Source of the DNA: Drouetiella hepatica Uher 2000/2452
GTDB lineage: Bacteria; Cyanobacteriota; Cyanobacteriia; Elainellales; Elainellaceae
DNA length: 64,000 nt
Direction of reading: 5' to 3'
NCBI GenBank assembly: GCA_019359505.1
Contig: JAHHHD010000002.1
Coordinates: 62,001-126,000, forward strand
The notes beneath the pieces are model-generated. The model worked only from the letters and a program-made list of their open reading frames with translations. It did no database searches and was not told where the DNA came from. Each line of letters begins with the position of its first letter. Positions within the stretch are counted from its first letter, which is position 1. Positions 50,334 through 56,213 of this stretch are shown here, one piece after another. A program made the translations under genes and the position numbers.

Positions 50334-50663
50334 GTGTGACTAAAATCACATCTTCGGTGGTTTAAACTGTTATAAGTAGTATGAACAAAGCGCAGAAGAC
50401 AGGCTAGAAGCGACTCGCAGCCATTGGGTGTGGGTCTAGTGAGCCGAGCATTGCCCTCCTCCTTTCTTTAAGTAAGTTCAGCAATGTCAGTCTACTGAAC
50501 TGCTAGGCAGCATTTGGGGCATCAGAACAGATGAGGCTTTGAACGTTTTCAACTCAGTTAGCGCAATTGGGCTGTCAAAATTGCCCTTGCGAAAGGATCT
50601 ATTCAAAACACAGATGCAGAAATTAGTTCGGCATCGGGACGGCTGTACAGAGGTTTGATACAT

Positions 50664-52526
50664 ATGATTGGGCAACTTTTAGCTGAACGGTATCTCATTC
50701 TAGAGAAACTTGGGTCGGGTGGGTTTAGCGAAACCTACTTGGCACGGGATAAATATTTACCCTGTCACCCGCTTTGCGTTGTCAAGTGCTTTCAGCTATC
50801 GCCTAGCAGCACAATTTCACAGGAGACAGCTCAACAGCTCTTCGCAACCGAAGCGCAGATTTTGGATCAGTTTGGGCAAAACCATGCCCAAATTCCAATC
50901 TTGTTTGCCTACTGTCATGAACAAGAACGAATTTACCAGATTCAGGAGTATGTTGAAGGCGACAATTTGGAAGATGCGATCGCTCCAGGGCAATACCTGA
51001 ATTCAGAAGCGGCGAGCATCGTATTACAAAAAGTCTTACCTATCTTGGATTACATTCATGCCCAGCAGGTGATTCATCGGGATATTAAGCCAAGTCATCT
51101 AATTTACAGCAAAAATACGATCGTTCTTATTGATTTTGGAGCGGCTTGCTATGTGTCTGAGCCGAATGCACCTAGCGCTGATATTGCCATTGGCACTCCG
51201 GGATACATGCCAGATGAACAGCTCTTGGGCATGGCAGAGTTTGGTAGCGATATTTATGCTTTGGGCGTATCGATTATTCAGATGATGACAGGCGTTCACC
51301 CGCAAGATTTTCAGCAAAATCCGATTTCGGGTGAGCTAGATTGGCAGGTTCATTTGCAAGGGCAATCGATCGATCCTCACCTGGCTGCAATTCTAAGCCG
51401 AATGGTGCAGCGTCATCCCCGACAGCGCTACGAAAGTGCTGCCGAGGTTTTGGTAAATTTGCGATCGCGCCCGGTGAAGCAAAAACCTGTAGGGCGGTCT
51501 TTAAAGCAGAGTCTATCTATTCGGCAGCTTTGGAAACCCACGGTCGCAGCGCTGCTGCTATTGAGCGGATGGTATGGCTCTAGCCGAATTGAACAGGCGG
51601 GTGCAATGCTGTCTCAAGCAGAGCATTTTGTCTCCCGCTCAGAAAAAGACATTACTCTGGTGCATGACATGAAGCTGCCCTCGAATGTCGATCGCATGTT
51701 GATTGCGCCAGACAACCGTTTTCTAGTTACGGCAGAGGCGGATCATGCCCTGCGTCTCTGGGCTCTGCCCACCGGAGCGGCGCTGCAAACTCTGTCAGGG
51801 CACAGGGATATAGTGACAGCTTTGGATATGAGTCAGGACGGTCGTCTATTAGTCAGCGGCGGCAAAGATCAGACCCTGCGGCTTTGGGACACGACGCTCG
51901 GAACGCTGCTCTGGAGCATTGAAGCGCATCCGGGAGCCGTGGCAGCCGTGGCGATGAGTCCCGATGGAAAATCGATCGCCAGCAGCGGTGAGGATGGAAC
52001 CCTGCGAGTTTGGGATTTGCAAACTGGAGCGCCTTTGCGCAGCTTGGCTACCGACAATCCGGTAACGGCAATGACTTACGGCGGCAATTCAAACCGTTTG
52101 GTGACGGCTGGCAGTACTCGCGATTTGCAGCTTTGGGATTTGCAAACTGGGCAGCTCCGTCGCACCTTTGCCGGACATAAAGGGGCGATCGTTAGCCTCC
52201 GTATGGCAGATGATCATATGCTCTTTAGCTTTGGCGAAGATCGGACGCTGGTTTGGGATTTGCAGCAAGAAGGTCTGATGCGGGCATTCCCTCAGAATTC
52301 TGCCCAGCTTGTGACAACGCTGCTAGGAAAACAGCACGCGGTCACCGTTCACAATGACGGCAACATCCGCGTCTGGAGTCCCCAAGGCAGTTTGATGACC
52401 ACGTTGCCTAGCAAGTGCGGTCAAGATGTTGCGGTTGCCCTCGGCCCTAATCATCGCTATCTCGTGGGAGTGAACCGAGAGAATCAACTGCGAATCTGGC
52501 AGATTAGTTCCCGTGCTATCCCTTAA
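50664..52526 (+). CDS. Ser/Thr protein kinase with WD40 repeats and altered catalytic loop
   Basis: The 620-residue protein has a Hanks-type kinase domain at 1-275, one membrane helix (about 287-303, WKPTVAALLLLSGWYG) and a WD40 beta-propeller (about 325-620) with units such as LSGHRDIVTALDMSQDGRLLVSG. The glycine loop GSGGFS (17-22), Lys41 (VVKCF), Glu63, HRD (138-140) and DFG (157-159) are present. The catalytic loop reads HRDIKPSHLI, so residue 145 is His where kinases have the metal-binding Asn. ATG 50664 is chosen (AGAGG about 10 nt upstream) over TTG 50655. It is followed by the membrane Fe-S and FHA-reductase genes on the same strand; the FHA domain is a natural reader of its phosphorylation. 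Confidence 0.9.
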   Translation: MIGQLLAERYLILEKLGSGGFSETYLARDKYLPCHPLCVVKCFQLSPSSTISQETAQQLFATEAQILDQFGQNHAQIPILFAYCHEQERIYQIQEYVEGDNLEDAIAPGQYLNSEAASIVLQKVLPILDYIHAQQVIHRDIKPSHLIYSKNTIVLIDFGAACYVSEPNAPSADIAIGTPGYMPDEQLLGMAEFGSDIYALGVSIIQMMTGVHPQDFQQNPISGELDWQVHLQGQSIDPHLAAILSRMVQRHPRQRYESAAEVLVNLRSRPVKQKPVGRSLKQSLSIRQLWKPTVAALLLLSGWYGSSRIEQAGAMLSQAEHFVSRSEKDITLVHDMKLPSNVDRMLIAPDNRFLVTAEADHALRLWALPTGAALQTLSGHRDIVTALDMSQDGRLLVSGGKDQTLRLWDTTLGTLLWSIEAHPGAVAAVAMSPDGKSIASSGEDGTLRVWDLQTGAPLRSLATDNPVTAMTYGGNSNRLVTAGSTRDLQLWDLQTGQLRRTFAGHKGAIVSLRMADDHMLFSFGEDRTLVWDLQQEGLMRAFPQNSAQLVTTLLGKQHAVTVHNDGNIRVWSPQGSLMTTLPSKCGQDVAVALGPNHRYLVGVNRENQLRIWQISSRAIP

Positions 52527-52535
52527 AAGTGGCAG

Positions 52536-52589
52536 AGTTAGAGATTTGAAAAGTTAGAGGTTTGAAAAGTTAGAGGATGTTTGAAAAGT
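52536..52589. repeat. 16-bp tandem repeat after the kinase gene
   Basis: AGTTAGAGATTTGAAA, AGTTAGAGGTTTGAAA and AGTTAGAGGATGTTTGAAA follow each other, with TAGAGATTTG recurring near 52757. Confidence 0.75.
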
Positions 52590-52616
52590 GGTCGGCTGTG
52601 ATTTTAGGCACCTGTT

Positions 52617-52711
52617 GATCCCCCTGCCCCCCTTAAAAAGGGGCGAAATGAATTCAAAGTTCCCCTTTTTTCTAGCGCAGCGGCGCGATAGCACGGGGAT
52701 TGAGGGGGATC
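52617..52711. repeat. Diverged palindromic repeat of the GATCCCCCT...AGGGGGATC type
   Basis: The arms GATCCCCCTGCCCCCCTTAA and ATTGAGGGGGATC flank an inner pair, AAAAAGGGG / CCCCTTTTTT. The right side is interrupted by about 28 bp, CTAGCGCAGCGGCGCGATAG plus CACGGGG. It looks like an old copy of a common cyanobacterial palindrome that has taken an insertion. Confidence 0.7.
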
Positions 52712-52837
52712 TGAAACGTTTCGCTACCCATAGTTAAACTTTTCAACCATCCGCTTAGAGATTTGCAAAATCCATAAAAGCATCCACTGATGCTGATTTC
52801 CAAGTAACGAGAAGCTTACCCGTAGAGAGACATCCAG

Positions 52838-54562
52838 ATGCTAAACAAAGTTCCAGAAACCACAATGCACCGAGTCCGGTGGCTCCTGACGCTGGGCTGG
52901 CTGCTGCTAATTGCATCCTTGTTTTATGACCCCATTACGCCGCACTTTACCCATCCTGATAACTTAGCTAGCCCCTTTCACATCAATCTCGATCAGTGCG
53001 TCAAGATTCGAGAAACCTGTTTACCGCAGGAATCTTACTCGATGAGTGTTTTGATGTGGTGGGCAATGATTGTGCCCGCAGGCATCTTTATTCTGCTGGT
53101 ATTTGGACATGAGTTTTGGCGAAGAATTTGCCCGCTCTCCTTTTTATCTCAGATTCCGCGCGCTTTGGGGATGCAGCGTAAGCGCAAGGTTATTGATCCA
53201 GTCACCCAGGCAGTGCGGTACGAATTGGTAACAATTGGCGAGAATTCCTGGCTAGGAAAGAATCATCTGTATGTGCAGTCTGGGCTGTTTTTTCTGGGGC
53301 TGGGGCTACGAATTCTGTTTGTCAACGGCGATCGCACCGCTCTAGCCTATTTTTTAATCGGGACGATCGCTTCTGCTATGCTCATTGGCTATCTCTACGC
53401 AGGGAAAAGCTGGTGCAATTACTTTTGTCCGATGGCTCCTGTACAAATGATTTACACGGGTCCGCGATCGCTGATGGGCAGCAAGGCGCACACTACGCCA
53501 AAGCCCAGTATTACCCAATCAATGTGCCGCACAGTAGACCCCAAAACTGGGAAAGAACAGAGTGCTTGCGTCGGCTGCAAGTTGCCCTGTATCGACATTG
53601 ATGCTGAAAAAACCTACTGGCAAGAGCTGCAAAAACCGGGTCGGCGACTGGTGCAGTATGGTTATCTAGGTATGGTCATTGGCTTTTATCTGTACTATTA
53701 CCTGTACTCTGGAAATTGGGATTACTACTTCACAGGTATGTGGACGCATGAGCGAGATTTACTGAGCAGAGTATTTGATCCAGGCTTTTACATTCAGGGT
53801 CACTCTATCGGTATTCCCAAGTTTATTGCCGTATTCATCACCTATGCCATTCTGCTTTCCATAACTTTTGTCTGGGGATTGATTTTAGAAAAGCTTTATC
53901 GTCGATATACGGTATGGCGAAAGAAACCTGCTTCAGCTGAACAGGCTCAGCACGTTATTTTTACACTATTCACTGCCATATCCTTCTGGACGTTCTTTTC
54001 CTATGGTGCGCGTCCATCCCTCAATCGCTTGCCAACCTATCTCCTGCTGGGGTTCAATGCGCTGGTTGTTTTGGTGGGCGCAATCTGGCTTTACCGAACG
54101 CTGAGCCGGACTCATGCTCAATACAATCGGGAGAGTATGTCTACCAGCCTAAGAAAGCAGCTCCAGCAGTTCCCGATCGATCCAAAGCTGTTGGATGGGC
54201 GTTCTCTCGAAGAATTAACCTCAAATGAGGTGTATACACTGGCAAAAGTCTTGTTGGCTGTCTCGCAGCAGCTCCAGTTGCAGACCTACACAGGCGTGGT
54301 GCAAGACTTGCTGGAACAGCGCGTCACCGATCCTTCCCAAAGTTTTGAGTTCTGCAAAAAACTGCGTCAAGATCTCCAGATTCAAGACTCTGATCACTTT
54401 ACGGCCATCCAGACGATCGCCACCACTCGTCCAGAGCTATTGGTCGCTTCTACCGAGCGATCGGCTACGGATGGAGATTCGGAAACTCTGGCAAGAACCG
54501 TTGCTAAACCTGCCAACCGAACGATTGCTCGCTCTGTTCCCCCTCAAAAACGGCGACGTTAG
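52838..54562 (+). CDS. NapH/NosR-like membrane Fe-S protein
   Basis: The 574-residue protein has about eight to nine hydrophobic helices. It carries the Cys-Pro motifs of the NosR/NapH/CcoG group: RRICPLSF (Cys98) and SWCNYFCPMAPVQ (Cys193, Cys197). A further cluster motif has Cys230 and CVGCKLPC (Cys244, 247, 251). These can hold one or two 4Fe-4S clusters next to the membrane. The C-terminal about 170 residues (from QYNRESMSTSL) are soluble, helical and unlike NapH. Family members pass electrons across or along the membrane. The FHA-reductase-ferredoxin gene follows 67 bp downstream and is the obvious electron donor or acceptor. Confidence 0.87.
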   Translation: MLNKVPETTMHRVRWLLTLGWLLLIASLFYDPITPHFTHPDNLASPFHINLDQCVKIRETCLPQESYSMSVLMWWAMIVPAGIFILLVFGHEFWRRICPLSFLSQIPRALGMQRKRKVIDPVTQAVRYELVTIGENSWLGKNHLYVQSGLFFLGLGLRILFVNGDRTALAYFLIGTIASAMLIGYLYAGKSWCNYFCPMAPVQMIYTGPRSLMGSKAHTTPKPSITQSMCRTVDPKTGKEQSACVGCKLPCIDIDAEKTYWQELQKPGRRLVQYGYLGMVIGFYLYYYLYSGNWDYYFTGMWTHERDLLSRVFDPGFYIQGHSIGIPKFIAVFITYAILLSITFVWGLILEKLYRRYTVWRKKPASAEQAQHVIFTLFTAISFWTFFSYGARPSLNRLPTYLLLGFNALVVLVGAIWLYRTLSRTHAQYNRESMSTSLRKQLQQFPIDPKLLDGRSLEELTSNEVYTLAKVLLAVSQQLQLQTYTGVVQDLLEQRVTDPSQSFEFCKKLRQDLQIQDSDHFTAIQTIATTRPELLVASTERSATDGDSETLARTVAKPANRTIARSVPPQKRRR

Positions 54563-54629
54563 CTTGCATCTCCTTTAAGAGTTCTGCTTCGGCACCGCCA
54601 TCCTACACAAACTATCTGGGAGACTACAT

Positions 54630-56213
54630 ATGTTAAAACTCAAATCGGTGAACTTCGAGCAGCAAGAATTTGGAACTCATATTCTGACCCAGTCTCGTCC
54701 CGGACAGCTAGAGTGGGTAATCGGAAGATATGCAACTTGCGACTTGGTTCTGTCTGCTCAAGAGGTTAGCCGAGTGCATGGAAAAATTATTTATCAGGAT
54801 GGCACCTATTACTTTATGGATGATGGCAGCACCTCCGGCTCATCGCTAAATGGAGAGCTAGTTGAGGAGAACGATAAGCGATCGCTGCGAGTAGGAGACT
54901 TGCTCCAAATTGGGGAGACTTATATTCACATTGAAGAGATGGAGCCGCCATCGCCTGCTGCTGCAGAGGGAGACTTATCGCTTACCGCAATGGAACCCCA
55001 GTGGACATCAGGTGATTTGCAGGTACGATGCTGCCGAATCATTGACGAAACGCCCGATGTCAAAACGTTTTGCTTTGTTGCCGAGCCGCCCGTGACGTTT
55101 AACTATAAGCCCGGACAGTTTGTTAACTTAGAGGTTGAGATTGACGGCAAGCCTATTCTTCGCCCCTACTCAATTTCTTCCTCTCCAACCCGTCCCCATG
55201 CAATTCATATTACCGTGAAGCGTGAAGTCTCTGGTCATCCAGAAGTGCGACCGGGATTGGTTTCTAGCTGGCTGCATAACTCGTTTAAGGTGGGCGATCG
55301 CGTCAAATTTGTGGGTACCCCGCTCGGTCACTTTAGCTGTCTACCCGATCTACCACCCAAGATCCTGCTGATTTCGGCAGGCAGCGGTATCACGCCGATG
55401 ATGTCAATGGCGCGGTGGGTACAGGATACCTTGGCAGATTGCGACGTTGTATTTCTGCACAGCGCCCGCAAGCCTGAGGACATTGTTTTTCGAGATGAGC
55501 TGGCGATGATGTCGGCTCAAATGTCAAATTTCCGTTTGGCAATCACCACGACTCAGCCTTCTGCGAGATATCCCTGGCTGGGACTAACGGGACGGATCTC
55601 CAAATCTATGCTGCATGTGGTTGTGCCCGATTTGCTCGATCGCGCAGTCTATGCCTGTGGCCCTGATGGCTTTGTCCAGACCTTCAAATCTTTGCTGGAG
55701 TCCGTCAACTTTCCGATGCAGCAATACAAGCAAGAAAGCTTTGGAGGCAAGCCAGCCGCAAAAACTGCTCCTGCCGTCTCTGCTCAGGATACATCTACTA
55801 TCAGCGCTGCCAATTTGTCTAAAGTCAGCAAAACAGCTCCTTCTAAAACTGCGCCTGCTCAGAGTTCGATCGCGCCCAGCCGCAATGGTCAAAGCAAGTC
55901 ACCCGATCTACTGCCCAGTCCTTTAGGGGGGAATACCTCGGTTAAAGTTGCGCCCTTGGTTAAGTTTGCCAACTCCGATCGCAGCGTTCCAGCCGATGGC
56001 AATACTTCTGTTCTAGAGCTTGCAGAACAGGAAGGCATCCCGATTCGTAACGCCTGCCGGGTGGGTTCCTGCGGTGCCTGCAAGGTTATGGCGCGTGAAG
56101 GTCAGGTGCAGTATGCGGGTCAGCCTATTGCCCTCAGCGCAGCGGATCAGGAAGCGGGCTACATCCTGTCTTGCATTGCCCGCCCAGTCGATCGGTTAGT
56201 GGTGGAAGCATAG
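54630..56213 (+). CDS. FHA domain / ferredoxin reductase / 2Fe-2S ferredoxin fusion
   Basis: The 527-residue protein has three domains. An N-terminal FHA phosphothreonine-binding domain (about 5-102) contains IGRYATCD, VSRVHGKI and STSGSSLNG. A flavin reductase of the ferredoxin-NADP reductase type (about 128-370) has RPYSISSSP (178-186) for FAD, SAGSGITPMM (249-258) and CGPDGF (343-348) for NAD(P)H. A Ser/Ala/Pro/Lys-rich linker (about 374-440) leads to a C-terminal ferredoxin with Cys476, 481, 484 and 515. The reductase-ferredoxin part resembles Hcr/HmpX-type reductases; an FHA module in front is unusual. GGGAG precedes the ATG. Likely role: NAD(P)H-driven electron supply to the neighbouring membrane Fe-S protein, under kinase control. 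Confidence 0.92.
   Translation: MLKLKSVNFEQQEFGTHILTQSRPGQLEWVIGRYATCDLVLSAQEVSRVHGKIIYQDGTYYFMDDGSTSGSSLNGELVEENDKRSLRVGDLLQIGETYIHIEEMEPPSPAAAEGDLSLTAMEPQWTSGDLQVRCCRIIDETPDVKTFCFVAEPPVTFNYKPGQFVNLEVEIDGKPILRPYSISSSPTRPHAIHITVKREVSGHPEVRPGLVSSWLHNSFKVGDRVKFVGTPLGHFSCLPDLPPKILLISAGSGITPMMSMARWVQDTLADCDVVFLHSARKPEDIVFRDELAMMSAQMSNFRLAITTTQPSARYPWLGLTGRISKSMLHVVVPDLLDRAVYACGPDGFVQTFKSLLESVNFPMQQYKQESFGGKPAAKTAPAVSAQDTSTISAANLSKVSKTAPSKTAPAQSSIAPSRNGQSKSPDLLPSPLGGNTSVKVAPLVKFANSDRSVPADGNTSVLELAEQEGIPIRNACRVGSCGACKVMAREGQVQYAGQPIALSAADQEAGYILSCIARPVDRLVVEA

Follow-up and report, generated by a model that had tools for sequence, protein, structure and literature searches.

In mycobacteria, the kinase PknB phosphorylates the cytosolic segment of the membrane protein MviN and so recruits the FHA protein FhaA, and PknF and Rv1747 form a second pair of this kind. 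NADPH oxidases such as NOX5 and the phospho-regulated NOX2 are controlled by calcium or phosphorylation and drive electrons from NAD(P)H into the membrane. Enzymes of the Hcr/GbcB type hand electrons from NAD(P)H to a partner by way of FAD and a [2Fe-2S] cluster. To our knowledge, bacterial protein phosphorylation has rarely been linked to a defined redox reaction. Here we describe a three-gene locus of the cyanobacterium Drouetiella hepatica Uher 2000/2452 (order Elainellales), found in a stretch of 64,000 nucleotides (contig JAHHHD010000002.1, positions 62,001 to 126,000) that we call the window. Three successive plus-strand open reading frames (ORFs) encode a Ser/Thr kinase with a WD40 propeller (gene 1), a membrane Fe-S protein (gene 2), and an FHA-reductase (gene 3), an arrangement that a first-pass annotation had drawn from the letters alone and that ORFs and Pfam matches confirm (Table 1). 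We read this set as an undescribed signal-gated module for electron transfer from NAD(P)H to the membrane, a reading that we judge, on balance, to be probable. The kinase, the Fe-S membrane protein, and the FHA-reductase, whose FHA domain is of a phosphothreonine-binding type, form a set conserved in many filamentous cyanobacteria, which suggests that phosphorylation controls the timing of electron entry into the membrane. The first-pass annotation knew of no described pathway with this set, and we found no description of it in the open-access literature either, although absence there is weak evidence.

Searches of genome contigs with gene 2 returned 103 relatives, of which the best 80 were kept. 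In a local domain scan, most close relatives showed a kinase gene followed by that of the membrane protein and then that of the FHA-reductase. When the FHA-reductase was taken as the starting point across 36 genomes of the order, a membrane gene lay within 1 kb of 32 of 40 FHA-reductase sites. The eight misses comprise three at the ends of contigs (G308:C591, G322:C58, and G318:C287), two FHA-FNR proteins that lack Fer2 (G309:C63, equal to L099, and G305:C199, equal to L100), two that matched in the reductase part alone (G299:C15 and G308:C377), and one that lies 4.2 kb off. Starting from the kinase (E ≤ 1e-110) in the same genomes, a membrane gene was found within 3 kb of 11 of 12 homologues. 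A search from the membrane protein found an FHA-reductase within 3 kb of 32 of 57 sites; 18 of the remaining 25 have frames of at least 878 amino acids, which by length alone is the size of the cyclic-nucleotide (cNMP) type. In a phylum-wide draw of 291 genomes, the FHA-reductase (E ≤ 1e-40) was present in at least 9 and the membrane protein (E ≤ 1e-20) in at least 36, both lower bounds with at most 4 or 5 candidates scored per genome; the FHA form thus accounts for a minority of a broader membrane family.

A tree of 76 membrane cores assigns most FHA-adjacent members to one of two clades, namely A (with 27 rows, the window among them, and support of 100/100) and B (with 14 rows and support of 100/99), and the adjacency label changes 4 times on it against a shuffled mean of 24. 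Counting distinct loci, an FHA-reductase lies within 7 kb in 35/35 clade A and 17/17 clade B loci and in 5/63 of all others; a WD40 kinase in one ORF lies within the same distance in 29/35, 12/17, and 0/63, respectively. The control group of 63 likewise consists of distinct loci, with L129, a duplicate of L032, left out. Where more than 4 kb of DNA was available on both sides, the counts were 25/25, 10/10, and 2/38 for the reductase and 23/25, 8/10, and 0/38 for the kinase. Conserved adjacency had been named beforehand as a test of the proposal, and by these counts the set is conserved well beyond chance. The clade A loci without a kinase comprise three that start at a contig end (L003, L011, and L021), one whose kinase is split into two ORFs (L024), one whose kinase is 7.2 kb off (L101), and one that has none (L012). 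Clade B kinases match that of the window weakly and often stand in a divergently oriented group.

Kinase and WD40 proteins are plentiful in the genomes examined (24 to 199 first-look candidates per genome), which could favor the view that the three genes are neighbors without a functional link. However, the chance that a random site falls within 3 kb of a membrane gene is ~0.0015 per genome, against the 32/40 observed, the kinase is missing from the control loci, and a like neighborhood recurs in two separate clades. We therefore regard mere coincidence of position as scarcely credible.

The genome of the window holds one clade A copy and one clade B copy. The latter (L111, C25:93000-112000 of the same genome) is preceded by a sigma-70 region 4 protein and followed by a DUF1822 protein, and RTX-like, WD40, and kinase ORFs diverge from it. 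A divergent RTX-repeat ORF stands 0.1 to 1.8 kb from the membrane gene in 8/16 clade B loci (L070, L075, L106, L107, L108, L111, L112, and L114). We considered an RTX calcium-binding neighbor as a fourth part and set it aside, as such ORFs are not enriched by clade A (6 within 294 kb of nearby sequence, against 10 in 245 kb farther away). Three copies come from contigs of metagenome-assembled genomes labeled Gracilibacteria or Chloroflexaceae (L026, L062, and L081) and fall among cyanobacterial ones; these contigs are probably misbinned.

Spacing of the three genes is typical of an operon. Across members, the kinase and membrane genes are -20 to 456 bp apart, with a single outlier of 1886 bp, and the membrane and reductase genes 3 to 447 bp; in several genomes neighboring genes of the set nearly touch or overlap. 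In the laboratory cyanobacterium Leptolyngbya boryana, where all three genes are plasmid borne (LBWT_RS30320, LBWT_RS30315, and LBWT_RS30310 in IAM M-101/dg5), the gaps on pLBX are only 2 and 18 bp. A second set, which NIES-2135 carries on another plasmid (NIES2135_60740-60720), has a 4-bp overlap between its first two genes (membrane-gene sites per record: IAM M-101, 1; dg5, 1; NIES-2135, 2; IU 594, 2). In the window, genes 2 and 3 are separated by 67 bp, and the 311-bp gap after the kinase, already seen in the first reading, contains a dispersed repeat that may explain its length. This repeat occurs at 6 genomic sites with up to 3 mismatches (0 for the reversed control), and none of the terminator-like sites in our listing falls inside the gap.

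Table 1. Features of the three-gene locus in window coordinates.
Feature	Position	Strand	Remarks
Gene 1: Ser/Thr kinase, hydrophobic segment, WD40 propeller; 620 aa from ATG	50664..52526	+	ORF opens with TTG at 50655
Protein kinase domain, residues 12-257, catalytic residues intact	50697..51434	+	Pfam Pkinase
Candidate membrane segment, residues 284-300 from ATG	51513..51563	+	Weak in window, stronger in most homologues
C-terminal WD40 region, from residue 338	51675..52523	+	WD40 matches 338 to at least 572
Gap between genes 1 and 2	52527..52837	+	311 bp; dispersed repeat at 52617-52643
Gene 2: 8-helix membrane Fe-S protein, NapH/CcoG-like, 574 aa	52838..54562	+	
C54 and C61, predicted non-cytoplasmic cysteine pair	52997..53020	+	82/82 and 81/82 aligned sequences
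C98-P99, degenerate first CX3CP (W94-x3-C98-P99)	53129..53134	+	
Second CX3CP motif, C193-x3-C197-P198	53414..53431	+	
Cluster ligands C230-x13-C244-x2-C247-x3-C251	53525..53590	+	
Tail motif TLARTVAKPANRTIAR with T550, T554, T562	54485..54532	+	Candidate phosphoacceptor and FHA docking sites
Gene 3: FHA, FAD/NAD(P)H reductase, [2Fe-2S] ferredoxin; 527 aa	54630..56213	+	
FHA domain, residues 29-95, with R33, S47, H50, N74	54714..54914	+	Pfam FHA
FAD- and NAD(P)-binding reductase domains	55050..55685	+	FAD_binding_6 141-235, NAD_binding_1 247-352
[2Fe-2S] domain, C476, C481, C484, C515	55974..56186	+	Fer2 449-519

Gene 1 carries the catalytic Lys, HxD, DFG, and activation-loop Thr of a Hanks-type Ser/Thr kinase, and the corresponding residues K41, D140, D157, and T178 are retained in 27/27 distinct close homologues (numbered from the ATG at 50664; ORF numbering runs 3 higher). 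The catalytic-loop residue K142 is Lys in 20/27 and Thr in 7/27. The hydrophobic segment between the domains has a 17-residue mean of 1.13 in the window and 0.91 in L004, while the other 26 of the 28 rows compared, which include two duplicate pairs, range from 1.35 to 2.31. The WD40 region and the kinase domain are predicted to lie on opposite sides of the membrane. PADLOC models for PD-T4-6 recognize this kinase (best E 1.5e-76), and we also considered an antiphage island of kinase and effector. Yet the 25 PADLOC matches listed, of 35, fall on the kinase domain (24) and the WD40 part (1), and genes 2 and 3 have none; moreover, the set is conserved across two well-supported clades. With matches to the kinase gene only, we reject a defense system as extremely improbable.

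At E ≤ 0.001, neither Pfam nor NCBIfam offers a match to the product of gene 2, but its kinship emerges from its relatives, 60/60 of which match Fer4_5 (PF12801) at E ≤ 1 (best 5.5e-8); at the same threshold, 40/60 match the CcoG model and 20/60 the napH_ model, weakly. The window protein itself scored 23.3 bits against PF12801 in the genome search (cut-off 22) and 17.7 bits in the Pfam scan, and 15.8 bits against the CcoG equivalog TIGR02745, short of the cut-off of 316.7. No flavin mononucleotide (FMN)-binding domain is among its two Pfam matches at E ≤ 1, and no FMN-binding family is among the best 25 of the 46 families matched by the 60 members. Judged by sequence, the protein is a distant member of the Fer4_5 (NapH/CcoG) group and not NapH, NosR, or CcoG proper, because it lacks the first CX3CP and a second ferredoxin motif, shows no FMN domain in the window copy, and scores far under equivalog cut-offs. 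The label "NapH/NosR-like" given in the first-pass annotation therefore stands as distant kinship, but not in the degenerate first CX3CP, the lack of an FMN domain, or the single set of 4Fe-4S cysteines.

Seven cysteines of the core (C98, C193, C197, C230, C244, C247, and C251) are invariant in 82/82 aligned sequences, while C506, the sole further Cys of the C-terminal half, is kept in 22/82. By the positive-inside rule, the Fe-S cysteines, the tail, the kinase domain, and the reductase would all be on the cytoplasmic side. The AlphaFold model (predicted local distance difference test [pLDDT] 86.6) has 8 long helices and a helical C-terminal segment, with the last ~34 residues disordered. Foldseek found no solved-structure relative of the membrane core at E ≤ 0.001, and the best hits of a PDB profile search were weak (E 0.46 and 0.55). 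In VIA comparisons with solved structures, the best match (Z 5.2, root-mean-square deviation [rmsd] 2.3, 49 aligned) was confined to the tail helices, and the core alone reached Z 3.1 (rmsd 10.4, 154 aligned); since these are short or loose helical overlaps, we draw no conclusion about the fold. Current annotations of the family read "hypothetical protein," "4Fe-4S binding protein," "FHA domain-containing protein," or "cyclic nucleotide-binding domain-containing protein."

Gene 3 combines in a single chain FHA, FAD_binding_6, NAD_binding_1, and Fer2 domains, as had been proposed, with an RxYS FAD motif, a GxGxxP NAD site, and a CX4CX2C..C [2Fe-2S] pattern. FAD residues R178, Y180, and S181 and NAD residues G251, G253, and P256 are retained in 52 to 55 of 55 reductases, and the Fer2 cysteines in 49 to 50 of 55, the remainder being gaps. 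The Arg/Ser/His/Asn surface of the phosphothreonine pocket, singled out in the first-pass annotation, is intact in homologues (R33 in 60, S47 in 60, H50 in 60, and N74 in 62 of 63 distinct FHA proteins). Among the best 25 of 33 NCBIfam matches, none reached its cut-off; the top one was GbcB (333 bits, cut-off 500), and the NADH oxidoreductase PRK10684 scored 180 bits (cut-off 383). Two FHA-reductases without a Fer2 match (L099:8274-9449 and L100:8376-9482) have no membrane gene nearby.

Adjacency, a Fer2 fusion, and plasmid pairs in another phylum all point to the membrane protein as the electron partner that the reductase would feed. The fusion (G118, L123:6478-8346) is a natural protein of 622 amino acids in which the membrane core, lacking the C54/C61 pair, carries a C-terminal Fer2 [2Fe-2S] domain; it occurs in 1/9 genomes of the family of G118. 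On plasmids pRsp8C3a of Rhizobium etli 8C-3 (L132) and pAt3 of Agrobacterium fabrum (L133), both typed as conjugative, the membrane core has its own C-terminal FHA domain and precedes an FNR-Fer2 reductase in which no FHA domain is recognized. Divergent genes on both are annotated as cytochrome c peroxidase, ATP-binding protein, and response regulator, the R. etli peroxidase product matching CCP_MauG, and these peroxidase genes hint at a periplasmic acceptor. A Rhizobium indigoferae plasmid (L134:8001-9305) encodes a core of 434 amino acids with neither regulatory tail nor C54/C61, near nodL, fabD, and fabG. As an obligatory acceptor, C54/C61 is weakened, since the L123 and R. indigoferae proteins keep the Fe-S cysteines without the pair.

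Electrons might instead run in reverse, with the membrane protein oxidizing quinol or a lumenal donor and the module reporting redox state to the kinase or reducing NAD(P)+. Reductases of this domain order (Hcr, GbcB, and PaaE models) pass NAD(P)H electrons to a partner, and transfer from quinol to NAD(P)+ is thermodynamically disfavored without coupling, so that we consider reverse flow improbable. In its favor, Wolinella NapH has been proposed as a quinol oxidizer (PMC5928378).

Comparative support for phosphorylation of the soluble tail of gene 2 comes from a conserved threonine motif, T-[VIL]-x-[RK], that is enriched with FHA adjacency. The motif was defined from the data: two parent patterns were noted on the first tails, and the combined pattern was coded later. 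Among 94 distinct membrane proteins, it is present in 42/47 FHA-adjacent tails and 18/47 others, with 81 copies in the former against 8.6 in shuffles (standard deviation 2.9, max 18) and 22 in the latter against 19.7. With a second tail cut (from residue 540, length limit 120 amino acids), the motif is present in 37/46 and 9/30 tails, and the 46 FHA-adjacent tails have 65 copies, about ten times the shuffled level (shuffle mean 6.1, max 13). From locus L091 onward, with the window not counted, 12/19 tails have it (shuffles average 2.5 and reach at most 7); the tails of L091 to L110 among them had been inspected in part before the pattern took its final form. In a strict set of 7 tails inspected only later, 4 have it (shuffles average 0.9 and reach at most 4, as 6/2000 do). 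In clade A, the motif forms an island, approximately D-x-x-T-[LV]-A-[RK]-T-[IV]-A-[KR], within an otherwise drifting tail, and clade B tails hold up to several copies of [DE]-x-T-[VIL]-x-[RK]-P. The segment has a pLDDT under 50 in the AlphaFold model. A conserved Thr island in a disordered tail, with kinase and FHA neighbors, has the look expected of a phospho-docking site.

Several observations weigh against recruitment through the tail. The classic FHA preference at +3 is Asp/Ile, from which the Arg/Lys at +3 differs. The strict set is small and 3/7 of its tails are without the motif, as are 7/19 of the later tails (four of these, L103, L121, L131, and L136, have other Thr-basic repeats by eye), and the 11 copies in nonadjacent tails under the second cut exceed most shuffles (mean 4.3, max 11). 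Only 3 independent pairs on the tree bear on motif and FHA adjacency, so this link cannot reach significance after phylogeny. Furthermore, five FHA-reductases outside clades A and B have no WD40 kinase nearby, some are solitary (L094, L096, and L097), and genomes G321 and G322 hold the clade A pair with no match to the kinase. FHA-reductases that occur apart from the WD40 kinase and from the membrane gene would also suit another arrangement, in which the redox couple is kept but the FHA domain reads an autophosphorylation site of the kinase, or acts like GarA, which works as a switch, while the tail motif serves membrane or partner binding. GarA, a known FHA regulator, is named in excerpts of PMC6554272. 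However, the motif is enriched in FHA-adjacent tails and at chance level in the kinase linkers (7/27; shuffle mean 3.1, max 9), and we consider this arrangement unlikely, though it is the strongest of the alternatives.

We return to recruitment through the tail, for which the parts, their conserved neighborhood, the intact catalytic, FHA, and Fe-S residues, and the Thr motif are in hand and from which we infer the steps of a mechanism. The WD40 domain would sense something on the noncytoplasmic side, and the active kinase would phosphorylate at least one Thr of the cytoplasmic tail (T550, T554, or T562 in the window). The FHA domain would bind the tail phosphothreonine and hold the reductase at the membrane, where electrons could move from NAD(P)H to FAD, to [2Fe-2S], and to the [4Fe-4S]/CP cysteines of the membrane protein. 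Onward transfer might be to a membrane or lumenal/periplasmic acceptor such as a quinone, a cytochrome, or a metal. Comparative evidence supports the interpretation offered in the first-pass annotation, in which phosphorylation brings the FHA-reductase to the Fe-S protein.

The membrane family is wider than that annotation could see. A C-terminal cNMP-binding domain is fused to the Fe-S core in L035, L093, L124, and L125, and a pair of EF-hands in Microcystis (L032:10001-12172); no FHA-reductase was found in loci L032, L035, L124, and L125. In two loci (L091:8141-11449 and L092:6487-9774), the core bears a C-terminal FHA and a cNMP-binding domain and is followed by a separate FHA-reductase. 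Given these cNMP, EF-hand, and FHA-plus-cNMP domains, the core appears to be coupled to several signal readers. A plasmid copy of PCC 6714 annotated with a cyclic nucleotide-binding domain (L135) belongs to the family. Another candidate for the cNMP type is slr0593 of Synechocystis, which is listed as a "cAMP binding membrane protein" with negative values in an iron-deprivation study (PMC3516471). It seems to us about evenly balanced whether the family as a whole is a gated electron valve plugged into phosphothreonine, cyclic-nucleotide, Ca2+, or valve-borne FHA signals, with phosphorylation recruiting the electron-supplying enzyme in the window. If so, phosphorylation would directly bring an electron-donating enzyme to a redox protein of the membrane, and sister systems would read cyclic nucleotides or calcium; a group of cyanobacterial WD40 kinases would gain substrates, and the membrane family a redox role.

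Compared with NapH, NosR, RdhC, and CcoG (PF12801), gene 2 is likewise polytopic, with a CX3CP motif and 4Fe-4S cysteines, and its matches to them are weak but repeated. NapH, NosR, and RdhC have two CX3CP motifs (excerpts of PMC5928378), whereas gene 2 has only the second; NapH and NosR have two C-terminal 4Fe-4S motifs, whereas gene 2 has one set of ligands; and NosR and RdhC have an extracytoplasmic FMN-binding domain, none of which was matched in gene 2, which has a long regulatory tail. Family definitions for this comparison follow PMC5928378 and PMC8238504. No terminal respiratory reductase was found among the part of the recurring neighbors that was scanned. Gene 3 shares the order FAD, NAD, Fer2 with the Hcr, HmpX, GbcB, and PaaE reductases but adds an N-terminal FHA domain, and its proposed partner is a membrane Fe-S protein. 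The set would work much like NOX5 and NOX2, although the membrane core is unrelated and relies on Fe-S where theirs relies on b-heme. Among phospho-recruitment systems, the output of PknB, MviN, and FhaA and of PknF and Rv1747 is cell wall synthesis or transport, whereas here the recruited chain would be a redox enzyme. Excerpts of PMC6554272 name FhaA, MviN, and an Rv1747 homologue in the context of PknB/PstP signaling. By analogy, the cyanobacterial set would work as phospho-recruitment of the PknB-MviN-FhaA type joined to a membrane Fe-S conduit.

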